From a bacterium (GTDB taxonomy: Bacteria; ARS69), in the NCBI GenBank assembly GCA_025774805.1, contig JALGZR010000013.1:1-47518 (forward strand): a stretch of 47,518 nt of DNA, in the 5' to 3' direction. The position numbers and the translations under genes were made by a program. Within the stretch, counting starts at the first letter, position 1. The number at the start of each line of letters is the position of its first letter. The notes under the pieces are model-generated. The model was not told the origin of the DNA and did no database searches. It worked only from the letters and a program-made list of their open reading frames with translations. Shown in pieces: positions 23,984 through 31,250 of the stretch.

Positions 23984-24967
23984 TCAGTCGGGCGCGACCG
24001 CCCTCTCCGCGGAGAGATCTTCGAGGAGACGGCGCAGGTACACCGCGACCATCCTCTTGCGGTATCCCACCGGCATCGCCGAGTTCTTTCTGGGTCGTGC
24101 GCGTTTCGACAGGTCGGCGGCGACGCCGCCGATCGCCTCGGAAGGCGGTCGGCCCGCGAGCGCCTCGGAGTGATCCACGAACTGTGGCACGGTGTCGACC
24201 GCGGTGTCGGCCACGCAGAGCGATTCGACGCGCCCGGCGGAGTCGAGTCGCAGCGCGGCCGCCACGCCCATCTCCGGGAAGTCGAGCGTGTCGCGATGAC
24301 GGAGCTTGCGGTACCCGACCCTGAGCCTCGCGGCGGCCTCCGGCCGGCGTATCGACACGATGATCTCGTCGGGCTCCTTCACGTTCCGACCGATTCCGTC
24401 CCCCCGATAGAACTCGCGCAGGGCGACGGTGCGGAAGCCCCGCGGCGAGGCGAGCTCCACCGAAGCGTCCAGGACCATCAAGACGGGCGCCAGGTCGCCG
24501 GGGTAGAGCGCGTAACAGGTCTCCTGTTGCGGAATGACGCGGCACGTATCGCTCTCGGCCTTCAGACACGATCCGATGCTCGCCCTCCAGGGGGCGGTCT
24601 GATTGAACCAGTAGCATCGATTCTCGACCAGGAGATTCCCGCCGAGAGTCGCCGAGTTCCGAACGAGCGGCGAGGCCACGACGCCGATCGCTTCCCCGAG
24701 GCCCGGCCAGGACCGGAGCATCTCGGGGGCCTCCGCGACGTGCGACAACCGTTCCATCGCTCCGAGGCGGTCGGTCTCGATCCCCCGGAGCTCTCCGACC
24801 CGATCGAGAGAGACGAGATGGCCCCTCGGTCGCAGGCGGTTCTTGTAGTTCGGAAGGAGGTCCGTGCCGCCGGCGAGGAAGTCGAAATCCCCGCAGTGCT
24901 CGACGGCGAGCGAGAGCGCCTCTTCCAGCGTCTCCGGTCGGTGGACTCGGAACGGAGGCAGGATCAC
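23984..24967 (-). CDS. Molybdenum hydroxylase FAD subunit with extra [4Fe-4S] insertion (HcrB-like)
   Basis: The product is about 327 residues. FAD motifs of the xanthine-oxidase family medium subunit are present: FLAGGTDLLPN and SATLGGNLL. Directly after the second is an insertion with Cys118, Cys134, Cys142 and Cys151 (RCYWFNQ, GSCLKAES, DTCRVIP, ETCYALY). As I recall it, the spacing of 16, 8 and 9 residues equals that of the four cysteines holding the extra [4Fe-4S] cluster in Thauera 4-hydroxybenzoyl-CoA reductase HcrB. That enzyme removes an aromatic hydroxyl by reduction. The start is a GTG overlapping the catalytic-subunit stop (GTGA). Substrate assignment remains inference. Confidence 0.85.
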   Translation of the reverse strand: MILPPFRVHRPETLEEALSLAVEHCGDFDFLAGGTDLLPNYKNRLRPRGHLVSLDRVGELRGIETDRLGAMERLSHVAEAPEMLRSWPGLGEAIGVVASPLVRNSATLGGNLLVENRCYWFNQTAPWRASIGSCLKAESDTCRVIPQQETCYALYPGDLAPVLMVLDASVELASPRGFRTVALREFYRGDGIGRNVKEPDEIIVSIRRPEAAARLRVGYRKLRHRDTLDFPEMGVAAALRLDSAGRVESLCVADTAVDTVPQFVDHSEALAGRPPSEAIGGVAADLSKRARPRKNSAMPVGYRKRMVAVYLRRLLEDLSAERAVAPD

Positions 24968-27327
24968 GACACGGTCTCCCTCGAGGGTTCGAACTCCTCT
25001 CTCGCCGTCGGGGCCGACGCGCGCCGGCTTCGCTCGATCGCGTTCAGGATGCGATCGGGGGTCATGGGCAGCTCCCGCACCCTCACCCCGACGGCGTCCG
25101 TCACCGCGTTCGCCAGGCTGGGTAGGATCGGCAGGAGGGGGCCCTCCCCCGCCTCCTTGGCGCCGAACGGCCCTTCCGGGTCGGCCGATTCCACGATGAT
25201 CACCTCGACCTCCGGCATCTCCAACGCGCTGGGGATCTTGTAGTCGAGGAGGTTCGCATTGCCGACGTTGGAACGGTTGTAGTCGAAGGACTCCATGAGA
25301 GCCTGACCCATGCCCATGTGGAGGCACCCCTCGATCTGCATCTCGACCGCGAGGGGGTTGAGCGCCCGACCGCAGTCGTGCGCGGCCCAGACCTTCACCG
25401 GGCGAACGAAACCGGTCTCGGGATCTACTCTCACCTGCGTCACGTAGGCCTGGAAGCTGTACGAAGGAGAGAGGCCGGCGGAGGCGCCCTTGTACTTGCC
25501 GCCCATCGGGGGAGCATCGTGATAGCAGCCCCGCGCCCGGAGCGCGCCGCGTCCCGCGATCGCCTCGATCACGGCGTCGAGGTAGGGAACCCGGACGCCG
25601 GGCTTCGGAAGATGGACGACGTCACCGCGAACCGTATCGAACCCCTCCTCGGGGTAACCGGTGAGTCGACTCGCCGCCCGGCAGAGCTCGGTGCGGACCT
25701 GCTCCGCGGCCCGCCGGGCGGCCGTCCCCGCCATGAACGTGACGCGAGAGCTGTAGCTGCCGAGGTCGATCGGGTCGGTGTCCGTGTCCCGGGAGAACAC
25801 CCGAATCCAGTCCAGGGGGATCCCGAGAACCTCCGCCACGCACTGGGCGAGCATGGTGTCGGAACCCTGACCGATCTCCGCCGCCAGGCAGTGGACGCTC
25901 ACGCCTCCGTCCATGTCGATCTTCAGGTGAACGGTGGATTGAGGGACCCGGTTCCAGTTGATGCGTAGCGCCGACCCGGAGATGTAGAAGCCGCAGGCGA
26001 TGCCGATTCCCTCACCGTAGGGCAGCTCGCCCCGCTTGCGCGACCAGTCGGACGCCTCGGCGGCTCGACGGATGCACTCCTCGGTGCCGTTCGACGTGAT
26101 GCGGAACCCGTTCAGGGTCGTCGTGTCGGCGGGGAGCAGGTTCCGCAGCCGGAACTCGACCGGATCCAGGCCGCACCGGGCGGCCAGCTCGTCGATCAGC
26201 ACCTCGTAGGCGAAGCGGGAGTTCACCGCCCCGTGGCCGCGCATGGCCCCGCAGGGCGGCTTGTTCGTGTAGACCCGGCGCCCCCGGTAGCGGAGATTCG
26301 GCAGCTCGTATGGCCCCACCGAGAGGACACCGTTGTAGTAGGTGGTCACGACGCCGAAGCTGCCCCAGGCTCCCCCATCGATCAGCACGTCGAGGTCGAG
26401 AGCGGTGAGCTTCCCCCGGTCCGAGCAAGCGACGGTCATCTTGGTCCTCGTCGGGTGCCGCCCGTGATTCGTGAGGAACACCTCCTCCCGATCGAACCGG
26501 ATCTTCACCGGCCGCCCGGACTCGCGCGACAGGAGCGCGGCGATCATCTCGTGGGGAAACGGATCGGACTTGCCTCCGAACCCCCCTCCGACCATCGGAC
26601 GGATGACGCGGACGCGATGCATCGGCATATCCATCACGCGGGCCAGATCGCGGTGGAGATAGTGCGGAACCTGGGTCGCCGACCAGACCGTCAGACGGCC
26701 GGACGGATCGTAGTGGGCGAGGGTGCAGTGCGGCTCGGTGAACGCGTGGGTCACCCCGATGAACCGGAAGTCGCCGGACACGGCATGATCCGATGCGGCG
26801 AGCGCCTCCTCGACGTCGCCGAAGTGCTGATACACTTCCTTGTGGAGGTTCGACGGGTGAGGAGTCTCGGGGTGGAGCTTCAGCTCGTCGGGGATCTCGG
26901 TGAGCGAGTCGGTGGGCCGGCGAAAGGCCTTCAGCTCCTCGTAGGTCACGTCGATCGCGGCGAGCGCGGCGAGCGCGATCTCCTCGTCGTCGGCGGCTAC
27001 GGCCGCGACCGCGTCTCCGACGTAGTTCACCTTTCCGACCGCAAGCGCCACCTCGTCCCGGGAGATGGGCAGGACTCCGAACTTCGCTCGATCGGCGTCG
27101 CCCCGGATCACGGCCCGGACGCCCGGCAGGGACTCCGCTCTCGACGTGTCGATGGAGACGATTCGGGCGTGCGGGAGAGGCGATCGGAGGATCTTGCCCA
27201 CGAGCTCCCCGGGGAGCCGGATGTCGTCGGTGTATACGGCACTCCCGGTGACCTTGGCGACCCCGTCGATCAGCGGGACCCGCCGGCCGACCCCGTGCGG
27301 AGACCGCGAGGATTCGGAGGAGGCCAT
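24964..27327 (-). CDS. Molybdenum hydroxylase catalytic (molybdopterin) subunit, HcrA/XdhA-like
   Basis: The product is about 787 residues, the usual length for the large subunit. It starts at an ATG that overlaps the stop of the small subunit (TGATG). Motifs: VPLIDGVAKVTGSAVYTDDI at the start of the a/b hammerhead domain, RPMVGGGFGGKSDPFPHE and CGAMRGHGAVNSRFAYE for cofactor contacts, and GQGSDTMLAQCVAEVLGIP. Near the end AKEAGEGPLLPILPSLANAV carries the conserved catalytic Glu. The group binds molybdopterin cytosine dinucleotide. With the FAD subunit's extra cysteine insertion, 4-hydroxybenzoyl-CoA reductase is the closest known type; other aromatic or N-heterocyclic substrates are possible. 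Confidence 0.88.
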   Translation of the reverse strand: MASSESSRSPHGVGRRVPLIDGVAKVTGSAVYTDDIRLPGELVGKILRSPLPHARIVSIDTSRAESLPGVRAVIRGDADRAKFGVLPISRDEVALAVGKVNYVGDAVAAVAADDEEIALAALAAIDVTYEELKAFRRPTDSLTEIPDELKLHPETPHPSNLHKEVYQHFGDVEEALAASDHAVSGDFRFIGVTHAFTEPHCTLAHYDPSGRLTVWSATQVPHYLHRDLARVMDMPMHRVRVIRPMVGGGFGGKSDPFPHEMIAALLSRESGRPVKIRFDREEVFLTNHGRHPTRTKMTVACSDRGKLTALDLDVLIDGGAWGSFGVVTTYYNGVLSVGPYELPNLRYRGRRVYTNKPPCGAMRGHGAVNSRFAYEVLIDELAARCGLDPVEFRLRNLLPADTTTLNGFRITSNGTEECIRRAAEASDWSRKRGELPYGEGIGIACGFYISGSALRINWNRVPQSTVHLKIDMDGGVSVHCLAAEIGQGSDTMLAQCVAEVLGIPLDWIRVFSRDTDTDPIDLGSYSSRVTFMAGTAARRAAEQVRTELCRAASRLTGYPEEGFDTVRGDVVHLPKPGVRVPYLDAVIEAIAGRGALRARGCYHDAPPMGGKYKGASAGLSPSYSFQAYVTQVRVDPETGFVRPVKVWAAHDCGRALNPLAVEMQIEGCLHMGMGQALMESFDYNRSNVGNANLLDYKIPSALEMPEVEVIIVESADPEGPFGAKEAGEGPLLPILPSLANAVTDAVGVRVRELPMTPDRILNAIERSRRASAPTAREEFEPSRETVS

Positions 27328-27917
27328 CAGTCGACTCCCGGCTCCGAATTCGCGGAGCCGGAGCCCGCTCCGCCCGGCTTCGAAGGATCGGAGAGCTCCG
27401 CTGCGGCCTCGTGCACCGCTTCGAGGATCTTCACGTAGCCGGTGCAACGGCAGAGGTTCCCGGAGACCGCCCGCCGCACCTCCCGGTCGGTCGGGTTCGG
27501 GACCTTTCCCAGCAGGGCGGACGTCGTCATCACGAAGCCGGGCGTGCAGTACCCGCACTGAGAGCCACCCCTCTCGTGATACGCCCGCTGGACCGGGTGG
27601 AGGCCGGGCCCCCTCGGAGTGAGGCCCTCGATCGTGCGGATCTCCTTCCCCTCCGCGAGAACGGTCAGTGTGAGGCAGGAGAGCGTCGCGACACCGTCGA
27701 GGTGAACGGTGCAACACCCGCAGGTCCCCATGTCGCAGCCCCGGGTCGTGCCGGTGAGCCGGAGACCTTCGCGCAGCGTGTCGAGCAGCACGTCGGAGGG
27801 CCGCACCGCCACCTCGTAGCGGGTGCCGTTCACGCTCAGCCGGACGACCACGCGGTCGGGGGAGCGCCGATCCGCGGCGGCCGGACGCGAATCGGAGGAA
27901 GGAACGGGGTCGGACAT
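27327..27917 (-). CDS. Molybdenum hydroxylase [2Fe-2S] subunit, HcrC/CoxS-like
   Basis: The product is 196 residues. The plant-type [2Fe-2S] site is GCDMGTCGCCTVHLDG with SC further on. The second [2Fe-2S] site is SQCGYCTPGFVM with NLCRCTGYVKI. It passes electrons between the molybdenum site and FAD. The order small, large, FAD subunit matches the hcrCAB order of Thauera. N- and C-terminal tails (about 25 and 20 residues) are longer than usual and rich in Ser, Gly and Pro. It is the first gene of the three, with overlaps at both junctions, so the enzyme is made from one transcript. Confidence 0.9.
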   Translation of the reverse strand: MSDPVPSSDSRPAAADRRSPDRVVVRLSVNGTRYEVAVRPSDVLLDTLREGLRLTGTTRGCDMGTCGCCTVHLDGVATLSCLTLTVLAEGKEIRTIEGLTPRGPGLHPVQRAYHERGGSQCGYCTPGFVMTTSALLGKVPNPTDREVRRAVSGNLCRCTGYVKILEAVHEAAAELSDPSKPGGAGSGSANSEPGVD

Positions 27918-28380: not shown

Positions 28381-29304
28381 ATGCGACTCAATCGCTCGAT
28401 CTCGCTCTTTACCCTGGCCGCCGCCGTCACGGTCCTGACGACCGGCCTCGCGTCGGCCTGCAAGATCTCTTCCGCGATGATGACGGGCAAGTTCGGCGCG
28501 AACGGAGAGTTCGAGGTGATTGCCGCCACGACGTCGGACGGCAAGCCCCTCGACAAGCTCGCCGGCAAGTCCCTCACCAAGGTCACCCAGGCGGACGGCG
28601 TCACGCTCGTTCCCGCCAACTACACCGACCGGCAGATCTGGCTCGTCGGGGACGTGGACTGCGGGGCGAGCAAGCTCCACATCGGAAGCTGGACGGCGGA
28701 CAAGGAAGAGGCCATGGCCCATGTGGCCAAGGTCACCTCGGGCGTGACGAAGGGCGCGTCCGCCCAGACCGCCGGCGCCTCCGGCTGCGGCTCGAAGGGC
28801 GCGTCCGCCAAGACCGCCGGCGCCTCCGGCTGCGGCTCGAAGGGTGCATCCGCCAAGACCGCCGGCGCCTCCGGCTGCTCCGGCAAGTGGGCGGCGGCCG
28901 CGAGCTCCTGCGGATCCAAGGCCGCGAGCGCGGCCGGGGCCACCCCCAAGACCGCGAGCAGCAAGTGCGGCCCCGACTGCCAAAAGGAGTGCTGCGCCGG
29001 AGCCGCCCCCACCACGACGGCGGTCGCGGGGGAAGGCGCCGACGCGATCCTCATCATCTACAACGTCTCCGGAATGACCTGCGGCGGCTGTGTCGGCCAG
29101 GTCAAGGCCGCGGTGGCCTCCCTCGGGTTCGGGAACATCCAGAGCTGCGAGGTGAGCCTGGAGGACGGCCGGGCGGTCATCCACGCCTCGGGTGACGTCT
29201 GCCGGAAGTCGATCCAGAAGGCCATCTCCGAAGCCGGCTTCCCCGCGGAGCTGGTGGCCCAGGCCGACGAAGAGAAGGTCGAGACGACGGCCGAGAAGTC
29301 GTAG
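28381..29304 (+). CDS. Exported cysteine-repeat protein with C-terminal HMA metal-binding domain
   Basis: The product is 307 residues with a signal peptide (residues 1-26, ending LASA before Cys27, which could instead be a lipidated cysteine). Residues 28-120 form a mixed alpha/beta domain I do not recognise. Residues 125-169 hold three 15-residue repeats, KGASAKTAGASGCGS, each with one cysteine. More cysteines follow (KCGPDCQKECC at 195-205). Residues about 222-290 form an HMA domain with GMTCGGC (Cys234, Cys237). HMA domains bind Cu(I), Zn(II) or similar. In total 14 cysteines are present. A role in periplasmic metal capture or transfer is inferred. A strong terminator follows. Confidence 0.8.
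   Translation: MRLNRSISLFTLAAAVTVLTTGLASACKISSAMMTGKFGANGEFEVIAATTSDGKPLDKLAGKSLTKVTQADGVTLVPANYTDRQIWLVGDVDCGASKLHIGSWTADKEEAMAHVAKVTSGVTKGASAQTAGASGCGSKGASAKTAGASGCGSKGASAKTAGASGCSGKWAAAASSCGSKAASAAGATPKTASSKCGPDCQKECCAGAAPTTTAVAGEGADAILIIYNVSGMTCGGCVGQVKAAVASLGFGNIQSCEVSLEDGRAVIHASGDVCRKSIQKAISEAGFPAELVAQADEEKVETTAEKS
28750..28884 (+). repeat. Three 45-bp in-frame tandem repeats
   Basis: Units at 28750, 28795 and 28840 are nearly identical. The first two differ by one codon (CAG versus AAG). The third drifts at two wobble positions and at its end. High DNA identity suggests recent expansion or conversion, so copy number may vary among strains. Confidence 0.9.
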
Positions 29305-29331
29305 CCACCGAACGCGCCGAGTGTCGACCGG

Positions 29332-29361
29332 GGGGAGGAGCGGTTCGCTCCTCCCCTTTTT
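29332..29361 (+). terminator. Rho-independent terminator
   Basis: An 11-base perfect stem (GGGGAGGAGCG with CGCTCCTCCCC), loop GTT, then TTTTT. It is 27 bases after the stop of the HMA-domain protein gene and is the clearest intrinsic terminator in the window. Confidence 0.92.
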
Positions 29362-29438: not shown

Positions 29439-29609
29439 GATCCGAACCGGTACCTTCTTGTGCGCCGCCGGTACTCGCGGCTAGACTGTTCGATCGGTCC
29501 CATCGCTCTCCCATCCGAACCCCGGAATCCGCCTTCCGCACGCAGGGCGGGAGAGTCGCTCCGGCCGCGACCCGGTGGGCCGGCAAAAGCCGGCAATAGG
29601 GGAAGACGC

Positions 29610-31250
29610 ATGGAATACCGTCTCGTCGGGGAGCACCACGGGACCCGCTTCGATCGCGACGTGCCCTCCGGCACCACCACCGTGGGACGCAGCGGTCAGA
29701 ACAACCTCGTGATTCCGAGCCAGACCGTGTCGAGGTGCCATGCGGAGATCCGGTTCGACGGGGACGAGCTCTGGGTCCGGGATCTCGGCAGCCTCAACGG
29801 GACCCGGGTCAACGGGGCGGAGATCGCGGCGCCGACCCCGATCCGGTCCGGAGACATCATCGAATTCGGAAGCGTACAGCTCCGTCTCGAGAAAAAGGGC
29901 GGTACCCACTCCACCTCTCCGGTCTGGACGAGCGAGGAAGACGTGTCGGGCAGCATCCAGATTTCTCGCGAGGACATCGAGACGGACACCGGGGTCCGCT
30001 CCGGGCACGAGTTGGCGATCCTGCGAATGCTCACGGAGGCCGGACAGCTCCTCGTTCTCCCCGAGTCACCCGAGGAGACGTTCGACCGGATCCTGCAGCT
30101 CGTCGAGAACACCATTCCCGCCGGCCGCATCATCATCCTGTTGAACGAGGACGGCGGGGAGCCGGTCCAGCGGGCCGCCCGGGTCCGGGGGGATCGCGCG
30201 ATCTCCCCGCTGCTCCTGAGTCGAACCATGATGCGAATGGTCCTCGAGAAGAAGAAGTCGATTCTGACCGGCGACGCCCAGTCCGACGAGCGGTTCCGGA
30301 ATCAGCACTCCATCGTCGCCCAGGATCTCCGCTCGGCCATGGCCGTGCCCCTGATCCATCACGACGAAGTCCTCGGCATGTTGTACGTCGACACGTCGGA
30401 CCCGCTGGCCTCGTACAGCGAAGAGGATCTGGAGGTGCTCACGCTCCTGGGGCAGATGCTCGGGGCCAAGATCGCGAACGCCCACCTGCTGAAGGCGGCT
30501 CGGGAGCGGGATCGCTTCGAGGAAGAGCTGCGGACGGCGACGAGAATTCAGAGACGCCTTCTGCCGCAGGAGCTGCCGAAGGTCGCCGGGTACGAGATCC
30601 AGTGCTGCCAGGAGACCTGCGAGGCGGTGGGCGGGGATCTCTACGACGCGGGGGTTCTTCCCGACGGGAGGATCCAGATCGTTCTGGGAGACGTCAGCGG
30701 AAAGGGAATCGGCGCGGCTCTCCTGATGTCCGACGTGCTCGCGACGATCCGGGCCCTTCGCACCATCGGACTGCCCCTCGACGACCTGGTCTCTCGATTG
30801 AACCAGCACATCCTGCAGTCCACCGAGCCCGAGCGCTATCTCACCCTGTTTGTCGCCGAGCTCGACCCGATCTCCCACCGCCTCCAATGGGTCAACGCGG
30901 GGCACCCGGACGCCCATCTGATCCACGCGGACGGTCGCATCGATTCGCTGGAGCCGACCGGGGCCTGGGTGGGCCTCCTCGATCTCCCCGACGTCGAGTA
31001 CGGAACGGAGTTCCTGGAGTTCCCTCCGGGGGCGGTCCTCGTCTCCACCTCCGACGGAATCAACGAGGCGGGGCGCGGTGAGAACGAGTTCTTCGGGGAC
31101 AAGCGTTTACTGGCCACGCTCCGCGAGTGCGCGGGCCTGAGTGCGAAGGAGGTCAGGGGCCGGATCCTCGAGGATGTCGATTCCTTCACGGGCGACGATC
31201 CGCCCGGCGACGACGTGACGTTGGTCGTTCTCCGACGGGAGCCCGCCTAG
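29610..31250 (+). CDS. FHA-GAF-PP2C (SpoIIE/RsbU-type) serine phosphatase
   Basis: The product is about 546 residues and soluble. FHA domain, residues about 5-95: TTVGRSGQNNLVIPSQTVSR and LGSLNGTRVNG bind phosphothreonine peptides. GAF domain, about 135-295, ends with AMAVPLIHHDEVLGMLYVDT. A short helical linker (RDRFEEELRTATRIQRRLLP) is the usual SpoIIE linker. PP2C domain to the end: AVGGDLYDAG, VLGDVSGKGIGAALLMS, FVAELDPISH, STSDGINEA and DDVTLVVLR, with the metal-binding aspartates present. RsbU-type enzymes dephosphorylate anti-sigma antagonists. The convergent membrane kinase is a natural partner, since FHA domains read Ser/Thr kinase marks. The stop TAG touches the downstream inverted-repeat element. 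Confidence 0.92.
   Translation: MEYRLVGEHHGTRFDRDVPSGTTTVGRSGQNNLVIPSQTVSRCHAEIRFDGDELWVRDLGSLNGTRVNGAEIAAPTPIRSGDIIEFGSVQLRLEKKGGTHSTSPVWTSEEDVSGSIQISREDIETDTGVRSGHELAILRMLTEAGQLLVLPESPEETFDRILQLVENTIPAGRIIILLNEDGGEPVQRAARVRGDRAISPLLLSRTMMRMVLEKKKSILTGDAQSDERFRNQHSIVAQDLRSAMAVPLIHHDEVLGMLYVDTSDPLASYSEEDLEVLTLLGQMLGAKIANAHLLKAARERDRFEEELRTATRIQRRLLPQELPKVAGYEIQCCQETCEAVGGDLYDAGVLPDGRIQIVLGDVSGKGIGAALLMSDVLATIRALRTIGLPLDDLVSRLNQHILQSTEPERYLTLFVAELDPISHRLQWVNAGHPDAHLIHADGRIDSLEPTGAWVGLLDLPDVEYGTEFLEFPPGAVLVSTSDGINEAGRGENEFFGDKRLLATLRECAGLSAKEVRGRILEDVDSFTGDDPPGDDVTLVVLRREPA

Follow-up and report, generated by a model that had tools for sequence, protein, structure and literature searches.

The window, that is, the whole stretch of DNA analysed (47,518 nucleotides), encodes a protein in which a linker carrying tandem Cys repeats precedes an HMA domain (hereafter the Cys-HMA protein). 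We propose that it acts as an exported buffer and shuttle for soft metals, most likely Cu(I), a reading to which we give about an even chance. This reading fits the HMA domain, the thiol-only linker, the exact spacing of a Cys cluster and a Cys number that varies among homologues. Copper is the preferred metal since most of the HMA matches are to Cu(I) proteins and since exported copper stores rich in Cys have been described (PMC13097082); periplasmic Cys-based copper storage has a described precedent in Csp1-type proteins (PMC7558416, PMC12510493). HMA metallochaperones and thiolate buffers are already known kinds of protein, and the protein described here would combine the two.

Gene and domain layout

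The open reading frame starts downstream of a purine-rich AGGAG and contains all the elements listed by the initial annotation of this DNA, namely a signal-peptide-like start, a first domain, 15-residue Cys repeats, a Cys cluster and GMTCGGC (Table 1). Its Cys residues lie at positions 27, 94, 136, 151, 166, 177, 196, 200, 204, 205, 234, 237, 256 and 274; of these, 136, 151 and 166 belong to the repeat units, 177 is a further linker Cys, 196, 200, 204 and 205 form the cluster, and 234 and 237 are those of GMTCGGC. The signal-peptide-like starts of the homologues end similarly, in an Ala-x-Ala-like motif by inspection. As for the terminator ascribed to the gene, a hairpin with a T run is present, but shuffling the region yields 0.8 hairpins on average, so that the hairpin scan by itself is not above chance.

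Table 1 Features of the Cys-HMA gene and its neighbours in the window
Feature	Position	Strand	Remarks
Whole gene, putatively exported Cys-repeat HMA protein, 307 aa	28381..29304	+	ORF, ATG start; homologues in G004, G002, G003
Putative signal peptide, Sec-type, residues 1-26	28381..28458	+	By inspection; ASA before Cys27; twin-arginine absent
First domain, residues 27-118, predicted OB-like beta-barrel	28459..28734	+	In G000 and G004 only
Three 15-residue repeats, residues 125-169, one Cys per unit	28753..28887	+	
Cys cluster C-X3-C-X3-CC, residues 195-205	28963..28995	+	Spacing shared with G002, G003; not G004
HMA domain, residues 227-287	29059..29241	+	Pfam stretch; GMTCGGC at 29071-29091
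Intrinsic-terminator-like hairpin, 13 pairs, then T run	29330..29358	+	
[2Fe-2S] subunit of divergent molybdenum hydroxylase	27327..27917	-	
Molybdopterin-binding subunit	24964..27300	-	Closest to 4-hydroxybenzoyl-CoA reductase alpha, 852.9 bits, below the equivalog cut-off of 994.55
FAD subunit	23984..25000	-	Alignment spans the additional Cys-bearing loop found in 4-hydroxybenzoyl-CoA reductase beta
FHA-GAF-SpoIIE phosphatase gene, downstream	29607..31247	+	

Family and distribution

To place the protein within its phylum, we used a sample of five genomes, one per species, all belonging to one family but to five genera. A profile built from four proteins identified the Cys-HMA protein in four of them: G000, which is the genome of the window, and G002, G003 and G004, with homologues of 278, 242 and 276 aa, respectively (the starts in G002 and G003 were set by eye). 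In G001 the gene was not found, either by profile or on its 10.7-kb contig. Across the domain, 210 of 386 genomes matched the four-protein profile in a search that scored at most 6 candidates per genome, and absence elsewhere is therefore to be read as "not found"; among the matches listed, only four cover the length of the profile and the others are to the HMA part. A few matches outside the phylum extend into the low-complexity linker (e.g. 95-247 in G298, 99-242 in G324 and 128-247 in G185), and the five loci read among them (L068, L071, L075, L076 and L085) showed no Cys repeats; L080 did not come up under the motif used. A search with the repeats alone recovered only G002 and missed G000, G003 and G004; it thus has no power and is not evidence of absence.

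A scan of 112 loci for GMxCxxC-like motifs in ORFs no longer than 520 aa returned 78 ORFs in 71 loci, of which 21 loci represent the Cys-HMA family and 50, some overlapping, are non-family loci without Cys repeats (the 10-Cys count of L076 is inflated by frame ahead of its likely start, and L005 contains masked X). Plasmid matches comprised 63 records, all from Acinetobacter and none covering 80%, the 15 listed being to the HMA part (residues 225-297 or 228-297). Viral contigs gave one locus, restricted to residues 210-296, and a contig scan gave 25 loci, nearly all to the HMA part, with L007, L005 and L010 starting at residues 189, 196 and 210. The parts are thus common, and within the searches made their combination is confined to this lineage.

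Related arrangements were observed elsewhere. Short exported HMA proteins lacking Cys repeats occur in other lineages (L067, L072, L086 and L076); the last of these (in G179) has an exported-looking start, a mature N-terminus reading CADCDMHKDSAAHAHAGK and an Ala-rich linker, and is a Cys/His-prefixed relative. HMA proteins in Streptomyces (L005, L007, L008, L016, L019, L022 and L026) bear a short Cys-rich N-terminal tag, MSCCTPDGSCST, which is another way to place thiols ahead of an HMA domain.

Cys repeats and linker

Tandem Repeats Finder detected the array at 28748-28878 with a period of 45 bp, 2.9 copies, 96% matches and a score of 241; the units read GASAQTAGASGCGSK, GASAKTAGASGCGSK and GASAKTAGASGCSGK. 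The initial annotation had raised an assembly artefact as a possible source of the repeats. We rejected this origin because the array is short (~131 bp) and because G002, G003 and G004 show the same order with different repeat sequences.

The linker is Ala/Ser/Lys-rich and carries 8 Cys in G000, 5 in G004, 14 in G002 and 16 in G003. Their spacing is 15 residues in G000, mostly 12 to 16 in G003 and 16 in G002, where Cys 27, 43, 59, 75, 91, 107 and 123 follow a strict period. Lys is found at +3 of 16 and at +4 of 10 of the 43 linker Cys in the four proteins, and other potential ligands are scarce (His 0, 0, 0 and 1, and Met 0, 0, 1 and 0, in G000, G004, G002 and G003, respectively). Cys is retained in every repeat although flanks and DNA differ between homologues, and the C-X3-C-X3-CC spacing ahead of the HMA domain is exact in three of the four proteins. 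Constraint on the repeats themselves is weak, since pN/pS between six G002 units (taken ungapped) is 0.68. This value, the per-genome homogenisation of the repeats (96% in the window) and the few Cys in G004 are what would be expected if the linker were neutral, of low complexity and lengthened by slippage in a G+C-rich genome, with incidental Cys and an HMA domain working alone. However, such an origin seems improbable given that the unit Cys is kept across four genera despite altered surrounding sequence and period, and that the cluster spacing is identical in the three proteins that have it.

HMA domain and predicted structure

Pfam identified the HMA domain (PF00403) in the window protein at 39.2 bits against a cut-off of 24.8, with no other family above its cut-off; the four homologues score 39.2, 45.3, 47.8 and 53.1 bits, and the CxxC is intact in all four. 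Ten NCBIfam models matched, all below cut-off, the best being a CopZ model (42.4 versus 85), and PHROGs gave zero matches. The initial annotation knew of no family with this order of elements, and we likewise found none in Pfam, NCBIfam, PHROGs or the literature searched, where titles and abstract openings, for the most part, gave no recognisable account of a bacterial exported protein joining Cys repeats to HMA.

An AlphaFold2 run on the four-row alignment (mean pLDDT 59) predicted folded blocks at residues 31-110 and 221-290 (pLDDT 74-88) flanking a linker with a pLDDT of about 30. The linker is probably disordered; low pLDDT from four sequences is consistent with disorder, not proof of it. 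Structure comparison of the predicted HMA fold gave Cu(I) chaperones, domains of Cu-ATPases and MerP as the nearest matches, the last in both its oxidised and reduced forms. The MerP matches, together with export of an HMA domain with GMTCxxC as in MerP, would agree with a MerP-like periplasmic scavenger whose extra thiols detoxify mercury or another thiophilic metal. We regard this role as decidedly improbable, as the score with the NCBIfam MerP model is 14.4 bits where 92.55 are required and no mer genes were recognised adjoining the Cys-HMA gene. MerT was matched in none of the five phylum genomes, and its control was likewise silent.

For the first domain (~92 residues) Pfam gave nothing, even with E allowed up to 1. 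Modelled alone from two sequences, it reached a pLDDT of 80.9 and a pTM of 0.68, and Foldseek returned no PDB match at E under 0.001. A second structure comparison placed OB-type folds among the best rows (Z 5.8 at most), with CusF and SilB in the top ten at Z 5.0-5.5; since unrelated OB proteins score level with CusF (Z 5.2, rmsd 3.0, 69 aligned) and SilB (Z 5.5, rmsd 4.0, 78 aligned), the likeness is a lead only. The ligands of CusF are His, Trp and two Met, and the alignment of the first domains of G000 and G004 contains no invariant His, Trp or Met. The domain is missing from G002 and G003, so while it is indeed unrecognised, as initially annotated, it is an optional part of the protein, present in two of four homologues. 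A first-domain profile gave no convincing match in any further genome, with weak ones in G262 and G273; the G262 frame reads by eye as glyceraldehyde-3-phosphate dehydrogenase and the match is therefore a chance one.

Gene neighbourhood and other metal genes

As initially annotated, the gene is divergent from a molybdenum/iron-sulfur operon encoding [2Fe-2S], molybdopterin and FAD subunits on the opposite strand. These subunits are nearest to 4-hydroxybenzoyl-CoA reductase (PDB 1rm6) and fall below all three NCBIfam equivalog cut-offs, though the Cys loop of the FAD subunit is kept; the substrate may differ from that of the named enzyme. Each of the four genomes that have the Cys-HMA gene carries this operon as its divergent neighbour. 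A PPIase, a phosphodiesterase and an M16-type peptidase (assigned by eye) are conserved as further neighbours, and the adjacency therefore mostly reflects shared gene order. A functional link to the operon is unsupported, because the enzyme resembles 4-hydroxybenzoyl-CoA reductase rather than copper-containing CO dehydrogenase and because G001 has the operon (large subunit 75% identity) without the Cys-HMA gene; the idea that it supplies copper to a Cu-Mo site of the CO-dehydrogenase type was rejected on the same grounds. In G001 the corresponding position is occupied by a tandem pair of long, similar genes whose products look exported and are beta-propeller-like by eye (L062, 648-6618).

Between the Cys-HMA gene and the operon, G002 and G004 carry a redoxin gene of the AhpC/TSA type, whose product has a CxxC and begins with a hydrophobic stretch (L047, 6294-6926, and L046, 2965-3507); the G002 copy has a weak SelL-related NCBIfam match. 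A search at E 1e-6 for a relative in G000, G001 and G003 found none. Upstream of the Cys-HMA gene, on the minus strand, these two genomes share 15 identical bases, TGAACAAAGTCAAGG (L046, 2851-2865; L047, 6192-6206), which were absent from the window even when 3 mismatches were allowed. Read on the opposite strand, these bases resemble a -35 element (TTGACT) serving the redoxin operon.

A thioredoxin-fold protein of this kind could act on thiols if the Cys repeats formed inter-chain disulfides in a structural, cross-linked envelope protein with HMA as a by-standing fold. The single, evenly spaced Cys, the flexible Ala/Ser-rich chain and the export read by inspection would suit such a protein. 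Nevertheless, we consider it unlikely, given the HMA CxxC intact throughout, a dense cluster that looks like a metal site, and a redoxin that was not found in G000, G001 or G003.

Among other metal genes, and apart from the Cys-HMA gene, PF00403 was found once each in G000 and G001, in ATPase-length frames, and heavy-metal ATPase matches occur in four of the five phylum genomes (above cut-off in three). The Cys-HMA protein is the sole HMA found in G004, G003 (67% complete) and G002 (82% complete). Inspection of its surroundings in the four genomes recognised no copper transporter, sensor or cuproenzyme. We also considered a modified-peptide chelator, in which an MNIO enzyme turns the Cys units into thiooxazoles as in captophorins and bufferins. 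This is very improbable indeed: the MNIO maturase (PF05114) was matched in none of the seven genomes searched, a search whose controls matched in 2 of 14, the EGKCG motif is absent and a folded HMA domain is fused. A gap at this gene is possible in G000, since that genome is 96% complete.

Proposed function

Under the exported thiolate buffer reading, the Cys-HMA protein would first leave the cytoplasm by Sec export, and its disordered Ala/Ser/Lys-rich chain would then offer a thiol about every 15 residues in addition to the dense C-X3-C-X3-CC cluster. Thiols of linker and cluster would gather Cu(I) as thiolate clusters, from which the C-terminal HMA domain (GMTCGGC) could swap metal with partner proteins. 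Gain or loss of repeat units would change capacity, and docking to the envelope or to a partner may be the role of the first domain where it is present. Several points count against this scheme: free thiols in the envelope could be prone to disulfide oxidation, G004 has just 5 linker Cys and no cluster, constraint on the repeats is weak, and the gene has no recognised copper genes beside it in the four genomes. The initial suggestion of a tunable metal sponge or copper carrier is borne out in its variable element, as Cys number differs among relatives (8, 5, 14, 16), while metal binding, copper as the metal, export, disorder and the direction of transfer are inferred.

More tentatively, and with the balance somewhat against it, these proteins may constitute a lineage-specific class of exported disordered Cu(I) buffers with unmodified Cys repeats and an HMA domain built in for unloading. 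Such a class would be a periplasmic equivalent of metallothionein, tunable through repeat number, that uses neither an MNIO maturase nor a Csp helix bundle. If Cu(I) is bound as proposed, the protein would be a simple envelope metal store made of a disordered thiol chain and a standard HMA exchange domain, with a capacity that follows repeat number. The four natural versions, with 5 to 16 linker Cys, form a dose series for relating capacity to thiol number.

Comparison with known systems

The Cys-HMA protein resembles CopZ/Atx1-type metallochaperones in its GMTCGGC HMA domain above the Pfam cut-off and in a predicted fold matching Cu(I) HMA domains. However, CopZ proteins are of ~70 aa (PMC7558416), whereas the window protein, at 307 aa, is no small stand-alone domain, adds a signal-like start and a linker of Cys repeats, joined in two of the genomes by the first domain, and scores below the cut-off of every NCBIfam CopZ model.

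MerP is an exported single HMA domain, for which we know of no repeats; its fold matches that of the HMA domain here, and its model (TIGR02052) is the one missed by the wide margin given above. With Csp1-type proteins the likeness lies in the proposed role, the storage of Cu(I) outside the cytoplasm by many thiolates. Csp1 is described as carrying a Tat signal and folding into a four-helix bundle lined with Cys (PMC7558416, PMC12510493), unlike the window protein, whose Cys stretch is predicted to be disordered, which lacks a Tat motif and which is fused to HMA.

MNIO-made captophorins and bufferins, which are EGKCG repeat peptides, share exported, repeated Cys units with Lys near Cys; the present family differs in its HMA domain, in lacking EGKCG and in that none of the seven genomes searched gave an MNIO gene. 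CusF, SilB and SilF, periplasmic OB-fold chaperones for Cu and Ag, are comparable to the first domain only, through its predicted OB-like barrel, and the ligands of CusF have no counterpart common to G000 and G004.
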